From the NCBI GenBank assembly GCA_018396915.1, contig JAGTRD010000012.1, positions 1 to 42,902 of the forward strand: DNA of 42,902 nucleotides. The letters are read 5' to 3'. This document shows, piece after piece, positions 22,385 through 42,727 of this stretch. Origin of the DNA: Candidatus Bathyarchaeota archaeon. GTDB lineage: Archaea > Thermoproteota > Bathyarchaeia > 40CM-2-53-6 > RBG-13-38-9. The notes beneath the pieces are model-generated. The model saw only the letters and a list, made by a program, of their open reading frames with translations, was not told the DNA's origin and ran no database searches. A program made the position numbers and the translations under genes. Each line of letters begins with the position of its first letter. Position 1 is the first letter of the stretch.

Positions 22385-23035
22385 TTGAATAGTAACCCGC
22401 AGACGATTCTTGAGGAGTTGAGGAGCCTCATCTCAACAATATCAGACGTTGAGACTGTCAAACAGACTACGAGGAAAGCCCTAGAATCAGGCGCCAAACC
22501 CCTAGAGATAGTCGACATCCTAAGCTCAGCTTTGAACGATGTTGGAAAAAAGTATGACTGCGGTGAATACTTCCTCTCAGAGCTGATGATGGCCGGAATC
22601 CTCGCCAGCGAAGTGACAAACATCGTAAAGCCACACTTAACCTCATCTGAAAGAAAGGCCCCAGGCAAAATCGTCATAGGAACAGTCAAGGGAGACCTCC
22701 ACGACATAGGAAAGAACATAGTCATCATGATGCTCTCAGCAGCAGGATTCGAAATAGTCGATTTGGGAGTCGATGTACCAGCCGAGAAATTCGTGGAGGC
22801 CACAAAGAAGGAGAAGGCAAACATCCTAGGAATGTCAGCCCTCCTAAGTTCAACAATGGATGAGATGAAGAACGTCATACAACTACTCGCCAGAGAGAGT
22901 ATGAGGAGCCTCGTCAAGGTCATCGTCGGAGGAAGACCTGTCACAAGTGATTTTGCAACCCAGATAGGAGCCGACGGATATGCGAAAGACGCCGTCGAAG
23001 CCGTGAACGTGACGAAGGCCCTCATCAAACCTTGA
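22385..23035 (+). CDS. Corrinoid protein of methyltransferase module A
   Basis: A 216-residue methyl carrier. Residues 1-85 are the helical cap; 92-216 form the B12-binding Rossmann domain. The cobalt-ligating motif D104-x-H106-x-x-G109 (GDLHDIGKN) is present, with GMSALLSST and IVGGRPV completing the cofactor pocket. This is the MtbC/MtaC/MtvC class. It accepts a methyl group from the substrate methyltransferase encoded next and passes it to an acceptor enzyme not in this window. It starts with TTG; CAGGAG lies upstream. Confidence 0.92.
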   Translation: MNSNPQTILEELRSLISTISDVETVKQTTRKALESGAKPLEIVDILSSALNDVGKKYDCGEYFLSELMMAGILASEVTNIVKPHLTSSERKAPGKIVIGTVKGDLHDIGKNIVIMMLSAAGFEIVDLGVDVPAEKFVEATKKEKANILGMSALLSSTMDEMKNVIQLLARESMRSLVKVIVGGRPVTSDFATQIGADGYAKDAVEAVNVTKALIKP

Positions 23036-23048
23036 GGAGGTGGCCAAT

Positions 23049-24152
23049 ATGAACCCACGTGAAAGAGTCCTGAAGACCCTAGAGATAAAAGAACCTGACA
23101 GAGTCCCAATAATGGAGACCGAGGTTGAATCAACATTGATGGAGGAGATCCTTGGAAAGAAGTATCCCGTAGTCACGTCGACCCAGACCCAGGTCCTCGC
23201 AGACAGAGAGAAAGAGAAGCTCAGGAACGACTTCAAGATAGAATGTTTCAGAAAGATTGGATTCGACATATGTACCGCAGACCTCTCAGCCCCCGAATAT
23301 TGGAAGCCGAAAATCAATCCGGATGGAACGATGGTCGACCTCTGGGGTAGAATATTAATACTCGACGATGAGACAAAGCAGTGGCTCCCATACAGCACCA
23401 TATTCAACACGCCAGAAGACTTCGAGAAATTTCAGCTCCCAGACCCAGACGCTGAAGGCTGGCTCTTCGCAACAGAATATATAAAAAGGAAAGTCGGAGA
23501 CACAATGGCCACCGTGACAGTCATCCGAGACCCATTCGCCCACGTATGGGAGATGCTCACACCAATAAAATTCGTAAGATGGATGTATGAGTATCCCCAA
23601 ACAGTCAAGAACGCAATAGACAAAGTCACAGAATTCAACATAAAGATCATAAAGAGGATAGGTGAAGTCCAGCCGGACTTCATAATATCAGCAGGAGACT
23701 ACTGTGAATCTAAAGGGCCGATGGTTCCAACAAAATTTTTCAAAGAAATAATATTTCCAAACTTGAGGAGGCAGGTCGACGAAGCCCACAGGGCAGGCCT
23801 CAAACTGGTAAAACATACAGACGGAAACATAAACCCAATACTCGAGGATATGGCGAAAATAGTCGACGGCCTGCACTCCCTAGACCCCTCCGCAGGAGTA
23901 GACATAGGAGAGGTCAAGACCAAATATGGAGACAGACTCGTCCTGATCGGAAACGTCTCAGTCGACAACCTCGCAAAAAAGAGTAAGACAGAGATCATAG
24001 AGGAAGTTAAGAACATCATAAGGAAAGCATCCCCTGGGGGCGGACATATACTATCCTCCAGCAACACATGGGCTGCAGGGGCGAGACTTGAAAACTGCCT
24101 AGCCATGGTTGAGGCAGGTAGAAAGTACGGGGTCTACCCAATAAGAATCTGA
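23049..24152 (+). CDS. UroD-fold methyltransferase of module A
   Basis: A 367-residue protein of the uroporphyrinogen decarboxylase/MtaA/CmuA superfamily. It begins MNPRERVLKTLEIKEPDRVP, typical of corrinoid-linked members. H256 sits in VKHTDGNINPIL; the His-x-Cys zinc motif of MtaA is not seen, so this branch differs from MtaA. GDRLVLIGNVSVDNL and ILSSSNTW are shared with the module B enzyme. The inferred role is moving a methyl group from a methylated substrate to the module A corrinoid protein. The ATG at 23049 follows GAGGAGGTG at ideal spacing; the GTG at 23040 is less likely. Methoxylated aromatics are one candidate substrate class because MtvB/MtoB enzymes share this fold. Confidence 0.85.
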   Translation: MNPRERVLKTLEIKEPDRVPIMETEVESTLMEEILGKKYPVVTSTQTQVLADREKEKLRNDFKIECFRKIGFDICTADLSAPEYWKPKINPDGTMVDLWGRILILDDETKQWLPYSTIFNTPEDFEKFQLPDPDAEGWLFATEYIKRKVGDTMATVTVIRDPFAHVWEMLTPIKFVRWMYEYPQTVKNAIDKVTEFNIKIIKRIGEVQPDFIISAGDYCESKGPMVPTKFFKEIIFPNLRRQVDEAHRAGLKLVKHTDGNINPILEDMAKIVDGLHSLDPSAGVDIGEVKTKYGDRLVLIGNVSVDNLAKKSKTEIIEEVKNIIRKASPGGGHILSSSNTWAAGARLENCLAMVEAGRKYGVYPIRI

Positions 24153-24256
24153 AAAATACTTGAATTCAATCCTTATCTCTAAAAACTACATAAACATTCT
24201 TATATGCAAAGTCTTAAATATATTTTTATGAAATAAATTATTTGCAGGCGACGCGA

Positions 24257-25831
24257 ATGGTTAGAATTCTAACCATCGCAGACTGGCTTCTATTGGCCGT
24301 ATACCTCGGCGGCCTCGCGGTATACGGTTGGCTCTTCAAGAGATTCATAAAGACAAAGGAAGACTACTTCATAGCAGGTAGGGCTGCACCATTCTGGCTC
24401 AGCGGCATCGCGCTCGCAGCGATAGCGTTAGATGCAAGTGACATGATGGCCCCATTCGCCCTCAGCTACGGTGCAGGTCTATGGGGTCTATGGTGGTTCA
24501 TAGGATGCGTCCTAGGATCATTCCTTCTGGCTGGATACATTGTTCCAGCATTCTTCAGGAAGAAAGTCATCACGAACACAACATACCTTGAATACCGCTT
24601 CGAACCAGGAATCAGGTTATACGCAGCTTGGACCCAAGTCATCCAGAGATCTGTCGTCATGGCTGGAGCTATAACAAGCATATCCTTCCTCTTGGAGATA
24701 GTTTTGGGAGCACCCTTCTGGCATGCTGTCTTGATAGCTGTAGCCATCTCAGCATTCATGACTGTTGCCGGAGGCAGATTTGCAGTGATGGCCTCAGAGG
24801 TCTTCGCGATCCTCTTCGGCGTCGTCATGGCTTGGTACCTGCTCAGCCTAGGGATAGGAGGTATAGGTTGGAGCAAGTTCGTAAGCGACGTCGTCCCATG
24901 GCTCCACTGGGTCAACTTCCCGAAGGCATACAACCCTGCATATCCAAACTGGGTCTGGTTCATCGGCATAACTATACTCACCCTCCCCTACTCGATCATA
25001 AATCAAGAATACCTCGCTAAAACATTGAGTGCGTCAAGCGAATACGATGCACGTAGAGGACTCATGTTCCCGAACATACTCCTATGGATATTATGGTGCC
25101 TACCACTCTCAATCCTCGGCAACATCTCATACTTCCTCTACCCTCCAGGCAGCTTCACCGGACCAGTCGATAGGTCACTATTCTTTATAATAAGGGATCT
25201 AGCCCCCGCAGGAATGATCGGGTTACTCGTCGCCACATTCTTCGCAGCCAGCCAAGACATCGGTGGAACGGCTCAGTCGGTAGCATCCCTGATAACAATA
25301 GACACATACCAGAGATTCATAAAGAAAGACGCTTCCGAGGAGGATCTTGTGAAAATTGGGAGGATACTGACCGCAGTAATAATGATAGTTCCACTGGTAT
25401 GGATACCCTTGATGCTGGCCATGCCTGTAGTGGCGACGGTTTATGGAATGGTGACGGGTATGGCGATCGTTCCAACAGTAGTGCCGTATATTGTCGGACC
25501 ATTGACAAGATTCTGGAGCAGAAGATCAGCGATAGTAGGATGCTTGGTCGCAGCTATATTCGGCTTCATCTTCAGAATGTGGGGTAAAGACCTGGGCCTA
25601 CCATTATTAATATACCATCCATGGACATGCGGCATCCCAACAATTATAATCGGTTTCGTTGTGATGGTGGTGTGGAGCCTCATTGAAAACTCTATGAAGG
25701 GACCTATACCTGAGACTGAACTGGAGGGACTGTTGATCACATCCCCAGGGGTGAAAGCAGCTATGCTCCAGAACGCCTTGGCCACAAGACTCACCGAGAT
25801 AGGCTTCAATAAATCTGGACTTGTGAGGTGA
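24257..25831 (+). CDS. Sodium:solute symporter (SSS family)
   Basis: A 524-residue membrane protein with about 13 helices, starting MVRILTIADWLLLAVYLGGL. The family pattern is clear: a short periplasmic start, FIAGRAAPFWLSGIALAAIALDASD in helices 1-2, and FFAASQDIGGTAQSVASLITIDTYQRF in helix 8, where SSS proteins place the Na2-site residues. It probably imports a methylated or organic substrate for module A, 105 bases upstream. A TATA-like aatatatttttat near 24217 gives it its own promoter, and the TTG at 24242 would lie upstream of or at transcription start, so 24257 is preferred. Confidence 0.85.
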   Translation: MVRILTIADWLLLAVYLGGLAVYGWLFKRFIKTKEDYFIAGRAAPFWLSGIALAAIALDASDMMAPFALSYGAGLWGLWWFIGCVLGSFLLAGYIVPAFFRKKVITNTTYLEYRFEPGIRLYAAWTQVIQRSVVMAGAITSISFLLEIVLGAPFWHAVLIAVAISAFMTVAGGRFAVMASEVFAILFGVVMAWYLLSLGIGGIGWSKFVSDVVPWLHWVNFPKAYNPAYPNWVWFIGITILTLPYSIINQEYLAKTLSASSEYDARRGLMFPNILLWILWCLPLSILGNISYFLYPPGSFTGPVDRSLFFIIRDLAPAGMIGLLVATFFAASQDIGGTAQSVASLITIDTYQRFIKKDASEEDLVKIGRILTAVIMIVPLVWIPLMLAMPVVATVYGMVTGMAIVPTVVPYIVGPLTRFWSRRSAIVGCLVAAIFGFIFRMWGKDLGLPLLIYHPWTCGIPTIIIGFVVMVVWSLIENSMKGPIPETELEGLLITSPGVKAAMLQNALATRLTEIGFNKSGLVR

Positions 25832-29485: not shown

Positions 29486-30619
29486 TCAAGACTTCTTTAT
29501 CGGATACTTTCCGTATCTTCGAGCCTCATCGACCATCACATATATGTTCTCAACCTTGACGTTTGAGTGCAGTGAGTTGCTTGAGGCTAGGATGAATCCC
29601 CCACCATTCCCCGCCGCGTCTATGCACCTTCTGACATCTCTTCTAACATCATCCTCGCTGCCATATGGTAGGATATAGCGGCAGTCAACGTTTCCAAGAA
29701 GACATATTCTGTCTCCATATCTTTCTTTAACGTCTTTTAGATCCATGGCTCCAGGCTCTATCGGATGTAAGCCTGAGATGCCCGTCCCTACTATGTCGTC
29801 GAGGATTGGGTATAGGTTTCCATCAGAATGTTTCAGTACAGGCACACTGTGCTTTCTACCCACATCAACTATTCTCTTAAGACATGGGAGCTCATACTCT
29901 CTGAATATTTTTGGGCTGATTAATGGTCCATGATTGTCTGCATAATCGTCTGTAACGAATAGTATATCTACACCGGCCTCAATCATTGCCTCAGCGATTC
30001 TTGTGCATGCTCTTGACATCTTGTCAAAGAATCTTCTTGCAAAGTTCGGGTTCTTATAGAAGTCTACTGATAACTTGTCTATTCCACCTCTGGCCTGGAA
30101 GACCATGTGCCACCCGCTGTGGCATTGACCCATCGTAACAATATCCTGACCTTTCAGGGGCTTCATAATCTTCTCCATCATATCCATTATCTCGGGGTCA
30201 TATCCGTCTGGCGGCTCATAATTCTCCAGGTCTTCAGGCGTGTTCACCGTTCCTCCAACAAAGTATGTTGTCTTACCTTCGATGCTCGTCTGCATGATCC
30301 TCCCCCACTGGTCTATGAACCTTTTCTCGTCGATGAATCTTGGTTTGAAACTCTTCTTTGCCAGGGAATAATCTGAGAATACTGGTGCAGCGTCAAAGTC
30401 CAGCCTCATACATGCCTCGACCATTGCGAGTCTGAAGTTTATCGAGGCCTCCCACTCACCGCCACCCATCAAGCCAAGCATCGGCTCTCCAATCTTTTGG
30501 CCAGGCGTCTTCTTCAAGATAGATTCGACGATTGGTTGGTCCAGACCCAGGTCTGTGACCGGCACTAGGTCAGGCTCCTTCAACTCTAGGGCTTTATAGA
30601 ACCTCTCCCTATGATTCAC
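29486..30619 (-). CDS. UroD-fold methyltransferase of module B
   Basis: A 377-residue methyltransferase homologous to the module A enzyme. It starts MNHRERFYKALELKEPDLVP from a GTG just after GAGGAGG. H264 is in VLKHSDGNLYPIL, with DRICLLGNVDCRYIL and FILASSNSLH near the C-terminus. VTDDYADNHGPLISPKIFRE is a conserved substrate-side loop, also present in module A as SAGDYCESKGPMV. The A and B enzymes diverge in their middle regions, so the substrates probably differ. It begins 1 base after the corrinoid gene stop and is clearly co-transcribed. Confidence 0.86.
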   Translation of the reverse strand: MNHRERFYKALELKEPDLVPVTDLGLDQPIVESILKKTPGQKIGEPMLGLMGGGEWEASINFRLAMVEACMRLDFDAAPVFSDYSLAKKSFKPRFIDEKRFIDQWGRIMQTSIEGKTTYFVGGTVNTPEDLENYEPPDGYDPEIMDMMEKIMKPLKGQDIVTMGQCHSGWHMVFQARGGIDKLSVDFYKNPNFARRFFDKMSRACTRIAEAMIEAGVDILFVTDDYADNHGPLISPKIFREYELPCLKRIVDVGRKHSVPVLKHSDGNLYPILDDIVGTGISGLHPIEPGAMDLKDVKERYGDRICLLGNVDCRYILPYGSEDDVRRDVRRCIDAAGNGGGFILASSNSLHSNVKVENIYVMVDEARRYGKYPIKKS

Positions 30620-30620
30620 C

Positions 30621-31256
30621 CTAATCTCCTCCTCGACCAGCCCACTGCCTACATATCTTCAATCCTTCAACAGCGGTCTTCCCCCATGCGTCGACATTTG
30701 ACTTTCTGGCAACCTCCTCGTTTACAGCCGCTCCGCCGACTATGACCTTTACCTTACCCCTCAAACCTGCCTTGACCAACTCCTCAACGACTGTGCTGAA
30801 CTCATTCACAGTAGTCGAAAGAAGAGCTGATAACCCCAGTATGTCAGCTTTATTCTCCTTGATAGCCTCTAAGATCCTAGTAGCCTCCACATCTACTCCT
30901 AGATCTACTACTCTGAATCCTGAAGACCGCAGCAGCATGCCTACAATATTCTTGCCAATATCATGGAGGTCACCCCTCACCGTTGCCAGAACAACAGTCG
31001 CAACCCCTCCCTCTCCTGCAGCTGTCGCAGTCTGCTCCAGCTTACTCAAAACCTCCTTAACAACCTCTCCTGCCATGATGAGTTCAGAGAGGAAGTACTC
31101 GTTGCTCTCATATTTATCTCCAACAATATCCATAGCCTTGCCTATGGCGCCGAATATGTCGTCTACAGACACTCCAGACTTTAACAGTTCTTCACATAGG
31201 TTTAGGGCCCTGTCGGAGTCGAGGTTGACTATTGAATCTTCAAACTGTTCGATCAT
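30621..31256 (-). CDS. Corrinoid protein of methyltransferase module B
   Basis: A 211-residue cobalamin-binding methyl carrier. The N-terminal helical cap (residues 1-75) ends in NEYFLSELIMAGEVVKEVL. The B12 domain has D96-x-H98-x-x-G101 (GDLHDIGKN), GLSALLSTT and IVGGAAV. It carries methyl groups between the UroD-fold enzyme encoded 1 base downstream and an acceptor system elsewhere. A short Ala/Gly-rich linker (TATAAGEGG) joins cap and B12 domain, longer than in module A. Confidence 0.92.
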   Translation of the reverse strand: MIEQFEDSIVNLDSDRALNLCEELLKSGVSVDDIFGAIGKAMDIVGDKYESNEYFLSELIMAGEVVKEVLSKLEQTATAAGEGGVATVVLATVRGDLHDIGKNIVGMLLRSSGFRVVDLGVDVEATRILEAIKENKADILGLSALLSTTVNEFSTVVEELVKAGLRGKVKVIVGGAAVNEEVARKSNVDAWGKTAVEGLKICRQWAGRGGD

Positions 31257-31371: not shown

Positions 31372-32769
31372 CTACAGTTTTATGACGGCTGTGTAGCCTA
31401 GAACCCACGCCACAACCCCTATGACGCTGCCTATTATGCTCAGCACCAATATAGCGTTGACTAGACGTGAGGGTCTGAACTCCTTCGGTATGAGCCTATT
31501 ATTCGCGTATAGTATCAGGGCTGAGCTTATTCCCCTCATGTAGATCCATCCTAGGGCGTTTAACATCCATAGGAAGAATGGGGCTGCTATAGTCACCAAG
31601 TAGAAGCTTATTAGGATTGCAACTGTGACAATTATGAAGTAGTAGAATCTGTAGGGTCTTTTTCCTCTGAGTCTTTGAGTTGTAGCGATGGCGTCTGTGC
31701 ATACTCTGGCTATGTAAGTGTCGTATACTGGTATAGCGTTGTCGCACAGTGTGAATATGATGAATATCAGAAACATGGTATACATGAATGGGCCCCACAC
31801 TTTTCCTACGATGATGGCTAGCTGTAGTGGAACTTGGAATCCTGTGGCTACTATTCCTTCCTTGAAGAGTACTGCTCGTCCAAGGAGGAAGTATAAGTAT
31901 CCTGAGATCATGCACATGGCGAACCACCATATCCAGACACTGTATTTCCCTAGCCTGATCCAGCCCCACATCTTCCTTACTTCTTCAGGATTTTTCAGGT
32001 CCATCTCTAGAGGTTCGACGTTAACCTCTTCAGGTGGCCTGAGAGGGCTTGAGACTTTACCGCTGTATTTTGCTAGACCCCAACCAGCCTCTAAAACCCA
32101 GAAGCTGATGAACATCATGGCTCCGCCGGGCTGGCTGTACAGTGAGGCCATTGTCGTCAAGGGGACTCCTTTAGGCCACCCGTCTAAGCCGAAGTTTAGG
32201 AACCCTCTAAGTATGGCCAAATGGTCTTCTGGCCTTGCAACAAGCGCAGCCACTATGACGAGTATGGAAAAGTTGACTATCATGACGACTATAAAGATCT
32301 TCTCCAGCGCGTTATAGACATACCTGGCGAGGTAGTATACGACCAATATGAAGACGAGGATTGCACATGACCATAAGAAGTAGTTTCCAACCTTTGTTAT
32401 CTCATAGAATGCGGATGCTGCTCCAGTTACTCCGAAAGGCCACCAGCTTCCAAAAGCTGCCAGCGGGATCCATAGCCAAGGCCACCAACCTTTCGGAGGT
32501 ATGTCTCTAGTCATGGTGAAGAAGGATCTGCCTGTGAGGACCGTGTATTTTATGACCTCAACGACTAGGACAGCTTCGAAGATGCCTCCGAGCCACATCA
32601 ACCAAGCTATGCTATGGCCTCCAACCGCAGATAGCCAAGGCATCAACTGAGCTTCTCCGCCGCCTACCGATATGCCAAACGATATTGCCATAGGACCTAG
32701 GGCCGCAAGCATACCTGCAACGGTTATCGGATAGGGATCGGGCACTTTGAAAATTTTCTTTTCACTCAT
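31372..32769 (-). CDS. Nramp/APC-like multi-spanning transporter of module B
   Basis: A 465-residue membrane protein with about eleven helices. ALGPMAISFGISVGGGEAQLMPWLS in helix 1 and GGIFEAVLVVEVIKYTVLTG resemble the Nramp branch of the LeuT fold, but the metal-binding DPGN of true Nramp proteins is absent (GPMAISFG instead). It is therefore likely an organic-substrate transporter. It lies 115 bases downstream of the module B corrinoid gene on the same strand with its own palindrome-rich promoter. The ATG at 32769 is chosen; starts further upstream would put coding sequence into the inverted repeat. Confidence 0.75.
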   Translation of the reverse strand: MSEKKIFKVPDPYPITVAGMLAALGPMAISFGISVGGGEAQLMPWLSAVGGHSIAWLMWLGGIFEAVLVVEVIKYTVLTGRSFFTMTRDIPPKGWWPWLWIPLAAFGSWWPFGVTGAASAFYEITKVGNYFLWSCAILVFILVVYYLARYVYNALEKIFIVVMIVNFSILVIVAALVARPEDHLAILRGFLNFGLDGWPKGVPLTTMASLYSQPGGAMMFISFWVLEAGWGLAKYSGKVSSPLRPPEEVNVEPLEMDLKNPEEVRKMWGWIRLGKYSVWIWWFAMCMISGYLYFLLGRAVLFKEGIVATGFQVPLQLAIIVGKVWGPFMYTMFLIFIIFTLCDNAIPVYDTYIARVCTDAIATTQRLRGKRPYRFYYFIIVTVAILISFYLVTIAAPFFLWMLNALGWIYMRGISSALILYANNRLIPKEFRPSRLVNAILVLSIIGSVIGVVAWVLGYTAVIKL

Positions 32770-32787
32770 TTTTCGTTTCCCCATATT

Positions 32788-32810
32788 TTTTGAGGGTCTG
32801 TCCCTCAAAA
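32788..32810 (-). promoter_or_regulatory. Perfect 9-bp inverted repeat at the transporter promoter
   Basis: TTTTGAGGG and CCCTCAAAA (32788-32796 and 32802-32810) are exact complements around 5 bases. A TATA-like tttataaata (minus strand, about 32835-32826) predicts transcription start near 32805, inside the repeat. It could be a repressor operator or, once transcribed, a leader hairpin 20 bases before the ATG. Confidence 0.6.
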
Positions 32811-32835
32811 TTAACGTGGCAAAACTATTTATAAA

Positions 32836-32847
32836 ACTTTGCAAAGT
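32836..32847. promoter_or_regulatory. Perfect 12-bp palindrome upstream of the transporter
   Basis: ACTTTGCAAAGT lies directly upstream of the TATA box, at the BRE/activator position. With the 9-bp repeat on the other side, the TATA box is bracketed by two different palindromes. Confidence 0.5.
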
Positions 32848-35822: not shown

Positions 35823-36179
35823 AGCATTTGAGCCTACGTAACAAAGAACAAGTCACCCTGGCCAGCACGATAGTTAACAACATACAAAATCCTAGACTAT
35901 CTTGAAGTTCCATGTGAGTGATTCTCGTCTCAGCAGGCGAGAAGGGCATGGTCAAGCAGAATTGAAAGGTGATGGCCAGAGTCTGCAAAATTGGATTCGA
36001 ATTGCAGAATTACCATATTATAAATCATATTTCTAAACTCTTAGATAATTTCCTCAACACCCCTTATCAAACATTTCTGTATATAGATGGAACAGAAGAT
36101 TCTCATCTTCATGAATAGGGACCGTAAATTTTTTAAAGGTTCAAGTTCATAAAATTCAAGATATAGAAGGGTGTTAATA
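35823..36179. other. Intergenic region before the sugar-type ABC operon
   Basis: About 360 bases. An AT-rich promoter-like stretch (aaattttttaaagg, about 36125-36139) precedes the substrate-binding protein gene. Nothing else is supported. Confidence 0.35.
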
Positions 36180-37655
36180 TTGTCTGAGGAGAAGAAGGTT
36201 TCTAGAAGAAGTTGGATGAAGTATGCTGGGGCTGGAGTCGTCGTCGTAGCAGCAGCTGCTGGAGCAGGATACTATGCAACACAACCTAAACCAACACCTA
36301 CACCAACAACCCCCACACCAACACCGACAACACCCACACCAGCGCCAGCTAAAGTTCTGAAGGTATGGCAGCTCTCATATGCATCTGAAACTGATCGAGT
36401 TAAATGGGAAAACATATACGCTAAATTTACGAAAGAAACCGGAATTAAAGTTGAGACATCAAATTTTGGAGGAGATGATATTGTTTCTAAGTGTACCAAT
36501 ATATTTGAATCAAAGGCTGTTGAGAATTTTCCAGATCTGATAAGCCCTGCTTGGTCGATGAACCCAGTTTGGTCTGTAAGAGGATATCTTGAGCCTTTAG
36601 ACGATATAATGGACTGGCTTAAAAGCAATTATGGTAACGATATAATCAAGGGACTACCGGAAGTTTGTTACTGGATGGGAGGTAAAGGGGAGAGGCATTA
36701 CTATGCGGTTCCTACGGGGGTTGTTGTTGGAGCACACTTCTGGAGAGGAGATATTCTGCAGAAGGTTGGTATAGACATAAAAGACCTTTCGGAATTCGAG
36801 GGATTTGACAAAGCTTTGTATAAGATTAAAGACAAGATAAAGGAGCTAGGTATATTAGCGCCACTGAGTGCCCAAACATCAGCAACAGGATCTACAGACT
36901 GTACATATCCAATCTACATACTCTTCCAAGCGTTTTCCGGGGTAAATCCAGTAGATCCGAATACCCTTAAACTGCAGTTAGATGATACGCCTGAGCATTT
37001 TCAGGCACTCGTAAAAGTAGTAGAAACATATGCCAGATGGTACAAAGACGGGATAAATATCAAGTCAGCACTAGTGGATGCCGGTGTAGACAATAACCTC
37101 CAATTCATAAACGGACAAGTGGCGTGCACATTCAATGGCATAGCAAGTATATATGCGGTTCTCAAGGATAGAAAGGCGCCATTCCTAGACAGCACCATAA
37201 CACTCCCAGTTCCTGGAAACGCTTCAAAGAACGTTAAACCACAAGGTGCTATCGATCCGAGATTTATGATGATTCCAGCGGGTCTGCCGAAAGAGAGAAT
37301 AGAATTAGCTAAGACATTTATAAAATTCTTCTTGAAGAAAGAAAACTACATGGAATGGTTTGGGACAACTGGAGGATTCGGCTGGTATGACTGCCCAATA
37401 TACCTAAGTATGGCAAATGCAGAGCCATATGTTTCAAACCCCGTATGGAGGGGGGTGAAAGACACAGTATTAGTCGGGGGATTTCCGCCTATAGATCTTT
37501 GGCGGCCATCTCTTGGCGTACTTCGTCCTGCTCCGCCAACTATAGAAATAGGAGGCTATATACTGGGAAAATATTCCAGTGCAGAAGATGCTGCGAAAGC
37601 TATAGTGACAAGGATCAAGAATCTGGCTAAACAATATGATATTGGATTGCCATAA
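36180..37655 (+). CDS. ABC transporter substrate-binding protein, CUT1 type, Tat signal
   Basis: A 491-residue extracellular solute-binding protein. The N-terminus MSEEKKVSRRSWMKYAGAGV has a twin-arginine pattern (SRRSWMK, compare SRRxFLK) before a hydrophobic helix, so it is probably exported folded. A Thr/Pro linker (residues about 37-57) joins the anchor to the binding domain, which begins KVLKVWQLSYASETDRVKWE, typical of family 1 binding proteins for sugars or glycerol derivatives. The TTG at 36180 has GGGTG at good spacing; a GTG at 36171 adds 3 residues. The ATPases and permeases follow after a T-tract and a 116-base gap. Confidence 0.85.
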   Translation: MSEEKKVSRRSWMKYAGAGVVVVAAAAGAGYYATQPKPTPTPTTPTPTPTTPTPAPAKVLKVWQLSYASETDRVKWENIYAKFTKETGIKVETSNFGGDDIVSKCTNIFESKAVENFPDLISPAWSMNPVWSVRGYLEPLDDIMDWLKSNYGNDIIKGLPEVCYWMGGKGERHYYAVPTGVVVGAHFWRGDILQKVGIDIKDLSEFEGFDKALYKIKDKIKELGILAPLSAQTSATGSTDCTYPIYILFQAFSGVNPVDPNTLKLQLDDTPEHFQALVKVVETYARWYKDGINIKSALVDAGVDNNLQFINGQVACTFNGIASIYAVLKDRKAPFLDSTITLPVPGNASKNVKPQGAIDPRFMMIPAGLPKERIELAKTFIKFFLKKENYMEWFGTTGGFGWYDCPIYLSMANAEPYVSNPVWRGVKDTVLVGGFPPIDLWRPSLGVLRPAPPTIEIGGYILGKYSSAEDAAKAIVTRIKNLAKQYDIGLP

Positions 37656-37664
37656 ACATCCACC

Positions 37665-37678
37665 TTTTTTTGTTTTTA
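37665..37678 (+). terminator. T-rich stretch after the binding-protein gene
   Basis: TTTTTTTGTTTTT lies 10 bases after the stop. Archaeal polymerase often terminates at T-tracts, so partial termination here would give more binding protein than ATPase and permease. Confidence 0.45.
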
Positions 37679-37771
37679 ATTTCGAATGTAATGTATATTC
37701 AAATAGATAGAATAATTTAATGGTGAAGAAATAAAATTCGCGGAAGCAATAATGTAATGGTTGACTAAAAT

Positions 37772-38878
37772 TTGAGTACAGTCAGACTTGAGAACATAAC
37801 TAAAACTTTTAACGGGAAAAAAGTATTAAAGAATATCAGTATGGAGATTAAGGATAAAGCTCTCACCGTTCTTCTAGGACCCCCTGGCGCTGGCAAAACG
37901 ACCTTGTTTAGGATAATAGCCGGTGTTGAGCGTCCAGAAACAGGTAAAATTTTTTTCGGAGAGAAGGACGTAACAATGCTCCCACCAAGGGAAAGACATG
38001 TTGGTTTAGTTTTTCAAAGTTATGCACTGTACCCTCATAGGACTGCGTACGAAAATATTGCTTCACCCTTGAAAGCCACAACAATGAAAAAAGCGGAGAT
38101 AGATGAAAGGGTCCACTCAATCGCAGAAAAGCTCGGTATCACCCAAGTTCTGAATAAGCTTCCTAAAGAAATGAGTGGGGGGCAGAGACAGAGGGTAGCA
38201 ATAGCCAGAGCCCTTGTTCGAGATGCAAATATATATATGCTCGACGAGCCTTTAACCAATGTTGACTATAAAATACGTGAAACAATGCGCATTGAACTAA
38301 AAAAGATACTTAAGGAACGAGGCGGTACAATAGCGTATGCTACCCCAGATCCACAAGAAGCAATGTCATTAAGTGATTATACCGCACTCATCCTAGACGG
38401 ATCCTTAGAGCAATACGGCTCAATGGAAGAGGTGTATAATAAGCCAAAGAACAAAAAAGTTGGCTTCTACTTCAGCTTTCCTCCTATGAACCAGTACACA
38501 GGCAAACTTGTTGAAGTTGGGAAATACACATATATCGATACGGGTGTAATGAAGATAGATGTAACTCATGCAGCTGATAAACTAAAGACAACTAATGAGA
38601 ATGAATTTATTATCGGTATTAGGCCAAATCAAATAAAGACTGAGACAGAAAATATTGGAAACCCAATTGAACTGGAGCTGGATGTTATTATAACGGAAAT
38701 TATAGGCTCGGAATCTCTTGTTCACCTTAAATTTGGAGACCAGAAAATGGTTATATATGTTCCATCAATTAGAAGATATGAACCTAAAGACAAGATTAGG
38801 GTAGCATTTAACCAAAAAGAAATTTATATCTTTAGTAAAGATACCGGAGACCTGATTTATTCTCCTTCGGTGGTCTAA
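37772..38878 (+). CDS. CUT1-type ABC ATPase 1, H-loop His missing
   Basis: A 368-residue MalK-like ATPase from a TTG start. Walker A GPPGAGKTT (residues 36-44), Q82, signature MSGGQ (134-138) and the Walker B Glu (MLDEP, E159) are intact. The H-loop reads YATPDPQEA, with Pro192 where the catalytic His belongs (codon CCA). From about residue 240 there is an OB-type regulatory domain. Its own ATP site should be weak, but its signature motif can complete the site of ATPase 2. The next gene starts 1 base after the stop. Confidence 0.88.
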   Translation: MSTVRLENITKTFNGKKVLKNISMEIKDKALTVLLGPPGAGKTTLFRIIAGVERPETGKIFFGEKDVTMLPPRERHVGLVFQSYALYPHRTAYENIASPLKATTMKKAEIDERVHSIAEKLGITQVLNKLPKEMSGGQRQRVAIARALVRDANIYMLDEPLTNVDYKIRETMRIELKKILKERGGTIAYATPDPQEAMSLSDYTALILDGSLEQYGSMEEVYNKPKNKKVGFYFSFPPMNQYTGKLVEVGKYTYIDTGVMKIDVTHAADKLKTTNENEFIIGIRPNQIKTETENIGNPIELELDVIITEIIGSESLVHLKFGDQKMVIYVPSIRRYEPKDKIRVAFNQKEIYIFSKDTGDLIYSPSVV

Positions 38879-38879
38879 A

Positions 38880-39956
38880 ATGGTAGAGATTAGACTTGAA
38901 AATATTACTCATATTTATGTTACTGGTAGAAAAATGCAAACAATTGCCGTAAAGGATATAAATTTAATTTTTCCGCATGCGTCCTTTTGCGCTCTTCTCG
39001 GCCCTTCGGGTTGCGGTAAAACTACCTTGATGAGAATTATCGCTGGATTAAATATTCAAACTAAAGGGCATGTTTATTTTGATGATCATGAAGTTAGCAT
39101 ATTAACTCCAAGAGAGAGAAATGTGGCAATGATCTTCCAGTTTCCAGTATTGTATGAAATGAATGTTTACGAAAATATCGCCTTTCCCTTAAGGAATGTG
39201 AAAGTGCCTGAGAATGAAGTTAAAAGGAAAGTTAAAGAAGTTGCTGAACTTGTAGGCATATCGAATATTCTCAATGTTCATCCTATGACTCTTGATATGG
39301 GGGGCAGACAAAAAGTCGTTCTTGCAAGGGCACTGGTTAGAGAGCCGAATGTATTCTTATTCGACGAACCACTTACAAACTTAGACCCGCTTGGGAGACT
39401 TGAGATGAGAAGCAAAATCAAAGAATTACAGAAGAACATTAAAACAACTATGATTTATGTGACACATGACCAAGCGGAAGCATTAACCCTCGCTGACAAA
39501 ATAGCAGTAATGGACTTTGGAGTTGTTATACAATATGCCGAGCCTACAGAACTATATGAGTGCCCTAGGAATGAGTTCGTAGGCTTCTTTATCGGCAACC
39601 CTGGTATGAACTTTATTTCTGGGACTCTCGAAGGCAATGTTTTAAGCTTTGGAGAATTCAAGTACGATGTCTCTGATGTTGCTGAGAAGCTTAAAGAGTA
39701 TGGCACAGAATTCAAATTAGGGATTAGAGCAGAATATGTAGAGGTCAGCAAGAAACCTAATGAGAATTTCTTTAAAGGCAAATGTTTAGTATCAGAATAT
39801 CTCGGAGCATCGACTTTACTTGATATAAAGATAGGCGACAAGGAAATTAAGGCAAAACTACGATCTACTGATGTAAAAGAAGGAGATGAGGTATATGTGA
39901 ACTTTCCAAAACAGAAGGTTCATATATTTAATAAAAATGGAAACTTATTATTATAG
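38880..39956 (+). CDS. CUT1-type ABC ATPase 2, signature motif degenerate
   Basis: A 358-residue MalK-like ATPase. Walker A GPSGCGKTT (41-49), Q87, Walker B FDEP (E163) and the H-loop VTHDQAEA (H196) are intact. The signature motif, normally LSGGQ, is LDMGG (138-142). Paired with ATPase 1 this gives one complete ATP site (its own Walker A/H-loop with the partner's MSGGQ) and one degenerate site. A C-terminal OB-type domain follows from about residue 235. Two different ATPases in one CUT1 operon also occur in the glycerol importers (GlpS/GlpT) of some bacteria. Confidence 0.88.
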   Translation: MVEIRLENITHIYVTGRKMQTIAVKDINLIFPHASFCALLGPSGCGKTTLMRIIAGLNIQTKGHVYFDDHEVSILTPRERNVAMIFQFPVLYEMNVYENIAFPLRNVKVPENEVKRKVKEVAELVGISNILNVHPMTLDMGGRQKVVLARALVREPNVFLFDEPLTNLDPLGRLEMRSKIKELQKNIKTTMIYVTHDQAEALTLADKIAVMDFGVVIQYAEPTELYECPRNEFVGFFIGNPGMNFISGTLEGNVLSFGEFKYDVSDVAEKLKEYGTEFKLGIRAEYVEVSKKPNENFFKGKCLVSEYLGASTLLDIKIGDKEIKAKLRSTDVKEGDEVYVNFPKQKVHIFNKNGNLLL

Positions 39957-39966
39957 AGGTGGAAAT

Positions 39967-40845
39967 TTGAGTATTAAAAAATTTTATTTATTTGAAAAAT
40001 CTCTATACAGTAATCAATTTTATAATATATTTGCAACGTTACCTTCAGTTTTAGTTTTTTCCATTCTACTGATTATGCCTCTGGTCACTGAAATCATATA
40101 TGCCTTTTCGACACTAACAGAACCCTTATCACTGGGTTCGATAATGTATGTGCTTAACGAATCGCTCTATATAGAATCGTTTATTAGGACTGTAGTTTAT
40201 ATTATAATAGATATATTCATAAAATTCTTTGTGGGTTTAATAACAGCTATAGCTTTAAGACAGGTTAGAGGCTACAAATTTCTATGGGGCATCTTCCTCC
40301 TACCCTACACAATGCCCTTGGTCCCAGCCTTATATGTCTGGTATTGTATGTATCATCCAGCATGGGGCTTTCTAAATTATATTGCCAGAACAACTGGACT
40401 CACGCAGACAATAATTAATTTTCTAGGAGATCCATCAATCGCATTATACTCTCTTATATGGGCCCATGCATGGCGATTCACACCACTATGGACAACCATT
40501 CTTTTAGCTGGATTATTTGGAATCCCTGAGGAATATTATGAAAGTGCCAAAATCGATGGAGCAACACCATCGAGAACATTTTTCAGGATAACATTGCCCC
40601 TCATAAAAAGATACTTATTCTTAAACGCAACGCTATCATTAATATGGACTTCAGGTGAATTTGTTAGTATATGGGTATTAACCAAAGGCGGACCAGCAAA
40701 TTCAACTCATGTTTTAGGCTCATACGCTTACTGGTACATGATGGCGGGTGGAAACTACCACATCGCGGCAGCTGCGCTTGTATGCGCCTTCCCATTACTG
40801 ATGGTTTTAATTGCAATATTCTTTAGAATTTTGAGGTGGAGATAA
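39967..40845 (+). CDS. CUT1-type ABC permease (MalF-like)
   Basis: A 292-residue permease with six helices. The coupling EAA loop reads YESAKIDGATPSRTFFRITL, as in MalF/UgpA proteins. PLVPALYVWYCMYHPAWGFLNYI is a typical extracellular segment. TTG at 39967 is preferred because GAGGTGG (39955-39961) lies just before it; an ATG at 39937 would overlap the previous gene by 20 bases. Codons end mostly in A or T, unlike the liv and corrinoid operons. Confidence 0.87.
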   Translation: MSIKKFYLFEKSLYSNQFYNIFATLPSVLVFSILLIMPLVTEIIYAFSTLTEPLSLGSIMYVLNESLYIESFIRTVVYIIIDIFIKFFVGLITAIALRQVRGYKFLWGIFLLPYTMPLVPALYVWYCMYHPAWGFLNYIARTTGLTQTIINFLGDPSIALYSLIWAHAWRFTPLWTTILLAGLFGIPEEYYESAKIDGATPSRTFFRITLPLIKRYLFLNATLSLIWTSGEFVSIWVLTKGGPANSTHVLGSYAYWYMMAGGNYHIAAAALVCAFPLLMVLIAIFFRILRWR

Positions 40846-41685
40846 ATGAAAATTAAACCAGAAGACGCTGCTAGACTGTTAGCTTACATTTGTGTAATAT
40901 CTATTGGAACCACATGGCTATTTCCAATATTCTGGGCCTTTAGCAGTGCATTCAAGTACGATATAGATATATTCAATCCAGCGATGGTAATACCGCCAAG
41001 ATGGACACTGGACAATTTTAAAGAACCCTATTTTAAACCCATATTTCTGACTTGGATAGGGAACAGCTTCATTGTCTCTGGCATTACAACAGTCATTGTA
41101 ATACTTATAAGCGTCCCTGCAGGCCACATATTGGCAAGAGCAAGATCAAAATTTTACCATATATTATCAAGGATACTTATATTTGCATATCTGTTTCCAT
41201 CAACATTCCTTGTCGTAGGTTTTATAAGACTTCTAGGAGCGTTTGGAATGTTAAACTCATATTTAGGTGTCGTTTTAGCATATGTTGCTTTTAATGCGCC
41301 ATACGTAATATATCTAGTGTACTCATATATGTTTGCTATTCCAGAGGAACTTGAAGAAGCATTATTAGTCGATGGTTATACAAAGTTCCATGTATTAACG
41401 AAACTAATATTTCCTCTATCATTTCCAGTCATAGTTACAGGCGTATTATGGACTTTTATGCAGTCTTGGAACGAAGTATTATATGCACTAGTTATACTAA
41501 GCTCCCCGAATCTTATGACTGCTCCGATAGGTATGGCTACACTTCAGCCTGGTGAAAGCATAACTCCATGGGGCACACTCTGGGCTTTCTCCCTTATATA
41601 CTCAATTCCCCCATTAATTGTGTTTTATGCTCTTCAGCAATATTACATAACAGGTATTATGAGAGGAGCTGTAAAAGCAGCTTGA
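40846..41685 (+). CDS. CUT1-type ABC permease (MalG-like)
   Basis: A 279-residue permease with six helices and the EAA loop EELEEALLVDGYTKFHVLTK. WTLDNFKEPYF and WIGNSFIVSGITTVIVIL are standard MalG-type phrases. It starts directly after the stop of the previous permease. The last gene of the operon; a promoter for module C lies 320 bases on. The substrate may be a sugar, glycerol-like compound or a methylated polyol, and proximity to module C makes a methylated substrate worth testing. Confidence 0.88.
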   Translation: MKIKPEDAARLLAYICVISIGTTWLFPIFWAFSSAFKYDIDIFNPAMVIPPRWTLDNFKEPYFKPIFLTWIGNSFIVSGITTVIVILISVPAGHILARARSKFYHILSRILIFAYLFPSTFLVVGFIRLLGAFGMLNSYLGVVLAYVAFNAPYVIYLVYSYMFAIPEELEEALLVDGYTKFHVLTKLIFPLSFPVIVTGVLWTFMQSWNEVLYALVILSSPNLMTAPIGMATLQPGESITPWGTLWAFSLIYSIPPLIVFYALQQYYITGIMRGAVKAA

Positions 41686-42067: not shown

Positions 42068-42727
42068 ATGACCTCTAAGGTTGAAGTTTTGGAGAAGATA
42101 AGGCGAAACATTGGCGATCTCGATTTTGAAGGTGCGAGTGAATCAGTTAAAGAAGCTTTGAACATGGGCATTAACCCTGCTGAGATAATAACTGATGGAA
42201 TATCTAAAGGTGAAGAGATTGTTGGACAGAAATTTGAGAAGAATGAGTATTTTCTATCTGAGCTTATAATGGCTGGGGAGATGACTAAGCAGTTGCTGGA
42301 TATACTTAAACCGCATATAGAGAAGGGTGGGGTTAAACCGAAGGGGAGAATTGTCATCGGAACGGTTGAAGGTGATATTCACGATATTGGAAAGAATATA
42401 GTTATAATGTTTCTGCAGTCGAGAGGTTTCGATGTTGTAGATTTAGGGGTTGATGTGCCTGTGGATAAATTTATTGACGCTGTCAGAGAGTATGAGCCTC
42501 AGATCTTGGCTATGTCGGCGCTGATGACTCTGACAGCGCCGGTTATGGGTGAGGTGATAAAAAGATTAAGGGAGGTAAGCCTCAGAAGTAAGGTCAAGGT
42601 TATAATTGGTGGTGCTCCGACCACACCTGAGTTTGGGGAGAGTATTGGAGCAGACTACCAGACCACGGACCCTGTGAAAGGTGTTGAGAAATGTCTTGAA
42701 TGGGTTAAAAGTGGAGTTGATGGTTGA
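42068..42727 (+). CDS. Corrinoid protein of methyltransferase module C
   Basis: A 219-residue B12-binding methyl carrier. The helical cap includes EKNEYFLSELIMAGEMTKQL. The cofactor motif is D103-x-H105-x-x-G108 (GDIHDIGKN), with AMSALMTLT and IIGGAPT. It shares the same layout as the A and B carriers but differs in its cap. The downstream methyltransferase starts at its stop codon (TGATG), so the two are coupled. Confidence 0.92.
   Translation: MTSKVEVLEKIRRNIGDLDFEGASESVKEALNMGINPAEIITDGISKGEEIVGQKFEKNEYFLSELIMAGEMTKQLLDILKPHIEKGGVKPKGRIVIGTVEGDIHDIGKNIVIMFLQSRGFDVVDLGVDVPVDKFIDAVREYEPQILAMSALMTLTAPVMGEVIKRLREVSLRSKVKVIIGGAPTTPEFGESIGADYQTTDPVKGVEKCLEWVKSGVDG

Follow-up and report, generated by a model that had tools for sequence, protein, structure and literature searches.

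The window analyzed in this study is a stretch of 42,902 nucleotides from the genome assembly of a Candidatus Bathyarchaeota archaeon. It contains a compact importer cluster of five genes on the + strand (36171-41685) that encodes a solute-binding protein, two ABC transporter ATPases (here called ATPase A and ATPase B), and two permeases. This operon make-up, with a binding protein of PF13416 and two BPD_transp_1 permeases (PF00528 twice), is typical of a CUT1 importer, except that the usual homodimer with two complete ATP sites is replaced by two unlike ATPases:

36171..37655, + strand: solute-binding protein SBP_bac_8, extracellular, gene 1 of the cluster (PF13416, E=6.1e-28)
37772..38878, + strand: CUT1 ATPase A, GlpS-like, signature intact, without the H-loop His (PF00005, E=7.7e-35; motifs; tree)
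38880..39956, + strand: CUT1 ATPase B, GlpT-like, signature degenerate, His intact (PF00005, E=1.2e-26; OB_MalK and TOBE_2; tree)
39937..40845, + strand: MalF/UgpA-like permease (PF00528, E=3.3e-10; top NCBIfam match UgpA, E=1.3e-18, under cut-off)
40846..41685, + strand: MalG/GlcU-like permease (PF00528, E=1.9e-17; top NCBIfam match GlcU, E=1.3e-29, under cut-off)

The solute-binding protein shares 94% amino acid identity with its copy in a same-genus genome (dN/dS ~0.04). The start of its gene (window 36171-36330) encodes the sequence SRRSWMKYAG, which resembles a twin-arginine motif, and a linker of Thr-Pro repeats, and the Thr-Pro stretch carries spurious open reading frames on the opposite strand.

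Both ATPase reading frames are complete, with 368 amino acids for ATPase A (from a TTG start) and 358 for ATPase B, and the two proteins are 36% identical. Each is an ABC ATPase of about 360 amino acids with a C-terminal OB/TOBE domain, as expected of the CUT1 type, and each matches MalK-type structures over its full length in phmmer searches. ATPase B scores over the cut-off for OB_MalK and TOBE_2, while ATPase A has a strong ABC_tran match and an OB_MalK match (E=1.7e-4) that stays under the curated cut-off. NCBIfam provided no name for the pair, the top matches being UgpC, GlcV, and MalK, all under their cut-offs. The nucleotide-binding motifs read GPPGAGKTT, FQ, MSGGQRQR, YMLDEPLTNVD, and YATPDPQEA in ATPase A and GPSGCGKTT, FQ, LDMGGRQK, LFDEPLTNLD, and YVTHDQAEA in ATPase B. 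Walker A, the Q-loop Gln, and the Walker B Asp-Glu are thus intact in both proteins, and ATPase A retains an A-loop aromatic residue (Phe13). The two proteins differ at four positions that matter for everything that follows:

38171..38185, + strand: signature MSGGQ of ATPase A, residues 134-138, predicted to contribute to the intact site
38345..38347, + strand: codon cca for Pro192 of ATPase A, which replaces the H-loop switch His
39291..39305, + strand: LDMGG of ATPase B, residues 138-142, which replaces LSGGQ and is predicted to lie on the impaired site
39465..39467, + strand: codon cat for His196 of ATPase B, H-loop intact, predicted to contribute to the intact site

The first-pass annotation had described exactly these complementary defects, a kept MSGGQ with Pro192 instead of the H-loop His in ATPase A and a kept His with LDMGG instead of LSGGQ in ATPase B, and both descriptions are borne out by the sequence and by alignment to the MalK-type structure 2d62, in which Pro192 faces the H-loop His and LDMGG faces LSGGQ with no gaps nearby. 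The N-terminal 162 amino acids of ATPase A are 90% identical to a same-genus copy, with dN of 0.047, dS of 0.84, and dN/dS of ~0.055 over these 162 codons, so ATPase A is, as judged from its first 162 codons, under purifying selection. This copy ends at a contig edge at codon 162, before the H-loop, and Pro192 was therefore compared in relatives of at most 49% identity; ATPase B is absent from the same-genus assembly that carries the partial A.

The distribution of these defects was surveyed in CUT1 ATPases gathered from the genome that contains the window, from genomes related to it, from plasmids, and from GTDB genomes, with motifs called from one alignment and tandem pairs defined by domain coordinates. 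Among the resulting 38 distinct tandem pairs, similarity yielded 23 archaeal and 5 plasmid pairs, and 8 bacterial loci were found by patterns that included the Walker A and VTHDQ motifs of B. The counts given here do not represent independent events, as the pairs share common descent. In 36 of the 38 tandem pairs, the Ser-Gly-Gly of the signature is lost in one partner (termed B) and kept in the other (termed A). All 36 A-type proteins keep Ser-Gly-Gly and the Walker B Glu, but 33 of them lack the H-loop His, the residue at this position being Pro in 14, Thr in 13, Ser in 6, and His in 3. The three A-type proteins that keep the His are altered elsewhere in the same half-site, either by a change of the first Walker A Gly to Ala (L022 and L035) or of the Q-loop Gln to Glu (L061). 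In B-type proteins, Walker A GK, the Q-loop Gln, the Walker B Asp-Glu, and the H-loop His are kept in 36/36, a count to which selection contributes in part because the patterns used to find the 8 bacterial loci included Walker A and VTHDQ of B. Their signature is variable (LDMGG, LTADQ, LRLDE, LTMEQ, LGPAD, LDVNS, and others), in contrast to the remainder of the protein, which is conserved.

ATPases without a tandem partner served as controls, and 87 of these 91 single proteins keep both motifs. Across all 167 CUT1 ATPases, not one has lost both the signature and the H-loop His. Since the split recurs in related pairs and no protein lacks both motifs, the defects seen in the window are far beyond what chance would produce. 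The A-loop aromatic residue, which stacks on the ATP base, is present in all 36 B-type proteins and in each of the 87 canonical singles, yet just 16 of the 36 A-type proteins have it, which argues that the A half-site is relaxed. Gene order is A-B in 27 of the 36 split pairs and B-A in the other 9.

The complementary defects are therefore a conserved, family-wide design in two-motor importers of archaea and in bacterial glycerol-uptake operons. The asymmetry is not peculiar to the window locus; this lessens the surprise of the individual case and adds to the interest of the trait for the family. Tandem duplication by itself is insufficient to explain the asymmetry, as two tandem pairs keep both motifs intact in both members. 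These exceptions, L042:3876-6074 from Sinorhizobium meliloti and L128:4880-7050 from Herpetosiphon, group together on the tree and are a different class of two-ATPase importers without sequence asymmetry.

The relationship to bacterial GlpS and GlpT, which had been suggested for this pair before, was assessed with a quick maximum-likelihood tree from which the signature and H-loop columns were left out. ATPase A falls into a 23-row clade with bacterial GlpS (SH-aLRT 95) and ATPase B into a 24-row clade with bacterial GlpT (SH-aLRT 100), so that both proteins group with GlpS and GlpT rather than with single MalK-type proteins. An annotated bacterial glp operon comprises glpD, two ATPases, two permeases, DUF2160, a binding protein, and glpK; its GlpS has LSGGQ and YATTEP and its GlpT has LTADA and YVTHDQ, and bacterial glp operons in the order glpD-S-T-P-Q-U-V-glpK carry the same split of signature and His. 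The suggested kinship thus holds for the placement of the pair as well as for its two defects: The complementary defect is a trait of the GlpS/GlpT group, to which the pair in the window adds a new member from archaea.

Compared with the GlpSTPQ(U)V glycerol importer of the Rhizobium leguminosarum type, the window shares the arrangement in which a tandem pair of CUT1 ATPases precedes two permeases. ATPase A is 35% identical to GlpS, which has Thr rather than Pro at the H-loop position, and ATPase B is 42% identical over 296 amino acids to GlpT, in which LTADA or LTADQ takes the place of LSGGQ and VTHDQ is kept. The window operon differs in its archaeal lineage and in its solute-binding protein, which is of the SBP_bac_8 type and encoded upstream. 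Furthermore, no glpD, glpK, or DUF2160 (GlpU) gene was found among the open reading frames neighboring the operon, and we therefore do not file it as a glycerol importer. Judged by its family, the substrate would be carbohydrate- or polyol-like, and the FGGY-like kinases or dehydrogenases that adjoin relatives of the pair (neighbors read by eye) suggest sugars or polyols.

Some of the A and B proteins are scattered over the quick tree. Constraining all A or all B proteins to one clade was nonetheless not rejected (p-AU of 0.458 and 0.762, respectively), and the tree with B held together had the higher likelihood. Several independent origins of the asymmetry are thus not established, as one clade is rejected for neither A nor B, and a single origin is equally not established.

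The wider surroundings of the operon hold three corrinoid proteins and two URO-D-type methyltransferase-like proteins (window 22385-24152, 29486-31256, and 42068-42727) that resemble MtgC/MtbC and MtaA with NCBIfam scores under cut-offs. One corrinoid gene directly follows the importer cluster, an SSF-type symporter (window 24242-25831) adjoins a corrinoid/URO-D pair, and so does an Nramp_1-type transporter (window 31372-32844; NF037982, over cut-off). The importer is set in a methyl-group-using neighborhood.

The same genome encodes further CUT1 ATPases. One asymmetric pair in B-then-A order (G000:C13:2716-4952, L158) has no adjoining permease or binding protein, and such an orphan pair is also found as L162, L163, L164, L165, and L166, at a conserved position in six genomes of the family between SDR-like and helix-hairpin-domain-like genes (neighbors read by eye). 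By analogy with MsmX, this orphan pair may serve several importers in trans. Two other loci, G000:C4:25670-30240 (L155) and G003:C86 (L161), each combine genes for a binding protein and two permeases with a single A-type ATPase gene (ASGGE, H-loop Pro) that has no adjoining B gene, and this ATPase may borrow B from the orphan pair. Five more MalG-like permease genes on contigs C1, C2, C25, and C38 of the window's genome are not located near any of the CUT1 ATPase matches found there, pointing to shared ATPases.

Composite ATP sites take motifs from both nucleotide-binding domains (PMC7756269), and the known head-to-tail geometry of these domains supports the earlier proposal that both defects would fall on the same composite site of a heterodimer. 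We consider it likely that the five genes at 36171-41685 encode a GlpST-like CUT1 importer driven by an obligate A-B heterodimer with one complete, hydrolyzing site and one impaired site. The complete site would be formed by Walker A, Walker B, the Q-loop, and His196 of ATPase B together with MSGGQ of ATPase A, and hydrolysis there would drive transport. The other site would combine Walker A, Walker B, the Q-loop, and Pro192 of ATPase A with LDMGG of ATPase B, so that the nonconsensus residues of both domains would meet in one place. This impaired site probably binds ATP, given that the Walker A Lys, the Walker B Asp-Glu, and the A-loop Phe13 of ATPase A are kept, and would hydrolyze it slowly or not at all, slow hydrolysis being possible because the Walker B Glu is intact in ATPase A. 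It could act as a clamp or regulatory site that helps to close the dimer, with ATPase B as the putative catalytic half and ATPase A providing the signature and a coupling surface. That a design of this kind does transport is indicated by Rhizobium leguminosarum, in which the glpSTPQUV importer is required for glycerol use (Ding et al. 2012, as cited in PMC7912956). A sequence search with A and B found no PDB entry for a GlpST-like pair.

The main argument for a heterodimer is that A-A and B-B assemblies would each have no complete site: The former would combine intact signatures with a missing switch His, and the latter would have the His without the signature. This makes it very improbable that ATPases A and B instead each assemble into a homodimer of their own or team up with further cellular ATPases such as the C13 orphan pair or the canonical MalK-like protein encoded at C14. 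An exchange of subunits is conceivable in a genome with other CUT1 ATPases, a permease-less B-A pair, and a lone A-type gene, but A and B are adjacent, are ordered together with two permeases, and co-occur in related operons. A sequencing error or gene decay could have been suspected given that the assembly consists of 42 contigs and that the same-genus copy of ATPase A stops before Pro192. Recurrence of the split in 36 pairs across archaea and bacteria rules this out for practical purposes; in addition, the reading frames are open and the first 162 codons of ATPase A bear the mark of selection noted above. Close homologs with both His and LSGGQ, which the first-pass annotation had named as a sign of sequence errors, fail to materialize for every full-length pair found.

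A more serious rival accepts the A-B heterodimer but has both sites hydrolyze ATP. In this view, the preserved Walker B Glu, among other residues, would compensate for the missing His and signature, so that the asymmetry would exist in sequence only. The intact Walker A Lys, Q-loop, and Walker B Glu of ATPase A would fit this idea, as would the tolerance of H-loop substitutions at one site of some transporters such as NBS1 of MRP1 (PMC7756269). However, the His and the partner signature are missing from the same site, and the relaxation of the A half-site extends to the A-loop in over half of all A-type proteins. In MalK, the exchange of the H-loop His192 for Arg (H192R) alone was reported to leave <2% of ATPase activity (PMC6222333, citing Davidson and Sharma 1997). 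Taken together, we regard hydrolysis at both sites as rather unlikely and favor a heterodimer with one complete and one impaired site.

Exporters are the familiar setting for asymmetric ATP sites, and among those with a degenerate site, loss of the Walker B Glu is frequent but not universal. While such exporters often lack this residue, the A-type proteins described here keep it in 36/36 and mostly lose the His instead, and ATPase A of the window accordingly reads LDEP (YMLDEPL). What the importers share with degenerate-site exporters like TAP1/2, MRP1, BmrCD, TM287/288, or Pdr5 is one complete site next to another with an altered signature and an altered catalytic-side motif (PMC7756269), but not the loss of the Walker B Glu that has been called a hallmark of degenerate exporter sites (PMC7544095). 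With MalFGK2 and other MalK-type systems (MalK, UgpC, GlcV, and SugC), they have in common the ATPase fold, the C-terminal OB/TOBE regulatory domain, and the types of permease and binding protein. These systems, however, use one ATPase gene to build a homodimer with two complete sites, whereas the window encodes two unequal ATPases that would form one. In MalFGK2, mutation of one of the two MalK subunits severely impairs transport, as stated in PMC6222333 and in the title of the 1997 paper by Davidson and Sharma cited there.

In the open-licence literature that we searched, no paper on asymmetry in GlpST-type or MalK-like importers or on asymmetric CUT1 importers was found. The GlpST importer is already known genetically, but its one-complete-site trait seems to be a variant of the MalK-type importer that had not been spelled out before. 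In a working importer family, nature has removed the His of one subunit together with the matching signature of its partner. Such importers provide a natural test of the need for two hydrolysis events in each cycle of a type I importer, with the GlpST system of rhizobia as a tractable bacterial model. Many genes that carry the annotation UgpC or "ABC transporter ATP-binding protein" should be read as the catalytic or non-catalytic half of such a pair. We tentatively entertain the further possibility that a single hydrolysis site has powered the whole importer branch, archaeal members and the bacterial glycerol importer alike, ever since one ancient gene duplication, and that the second site, its Walker B Glu still in place, has been kept only as a clamp with bound ATP. 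If true, these importers would spend about 1 ATP per substrate, next to a model type I importer, MalFGK2, that has two complete sites.
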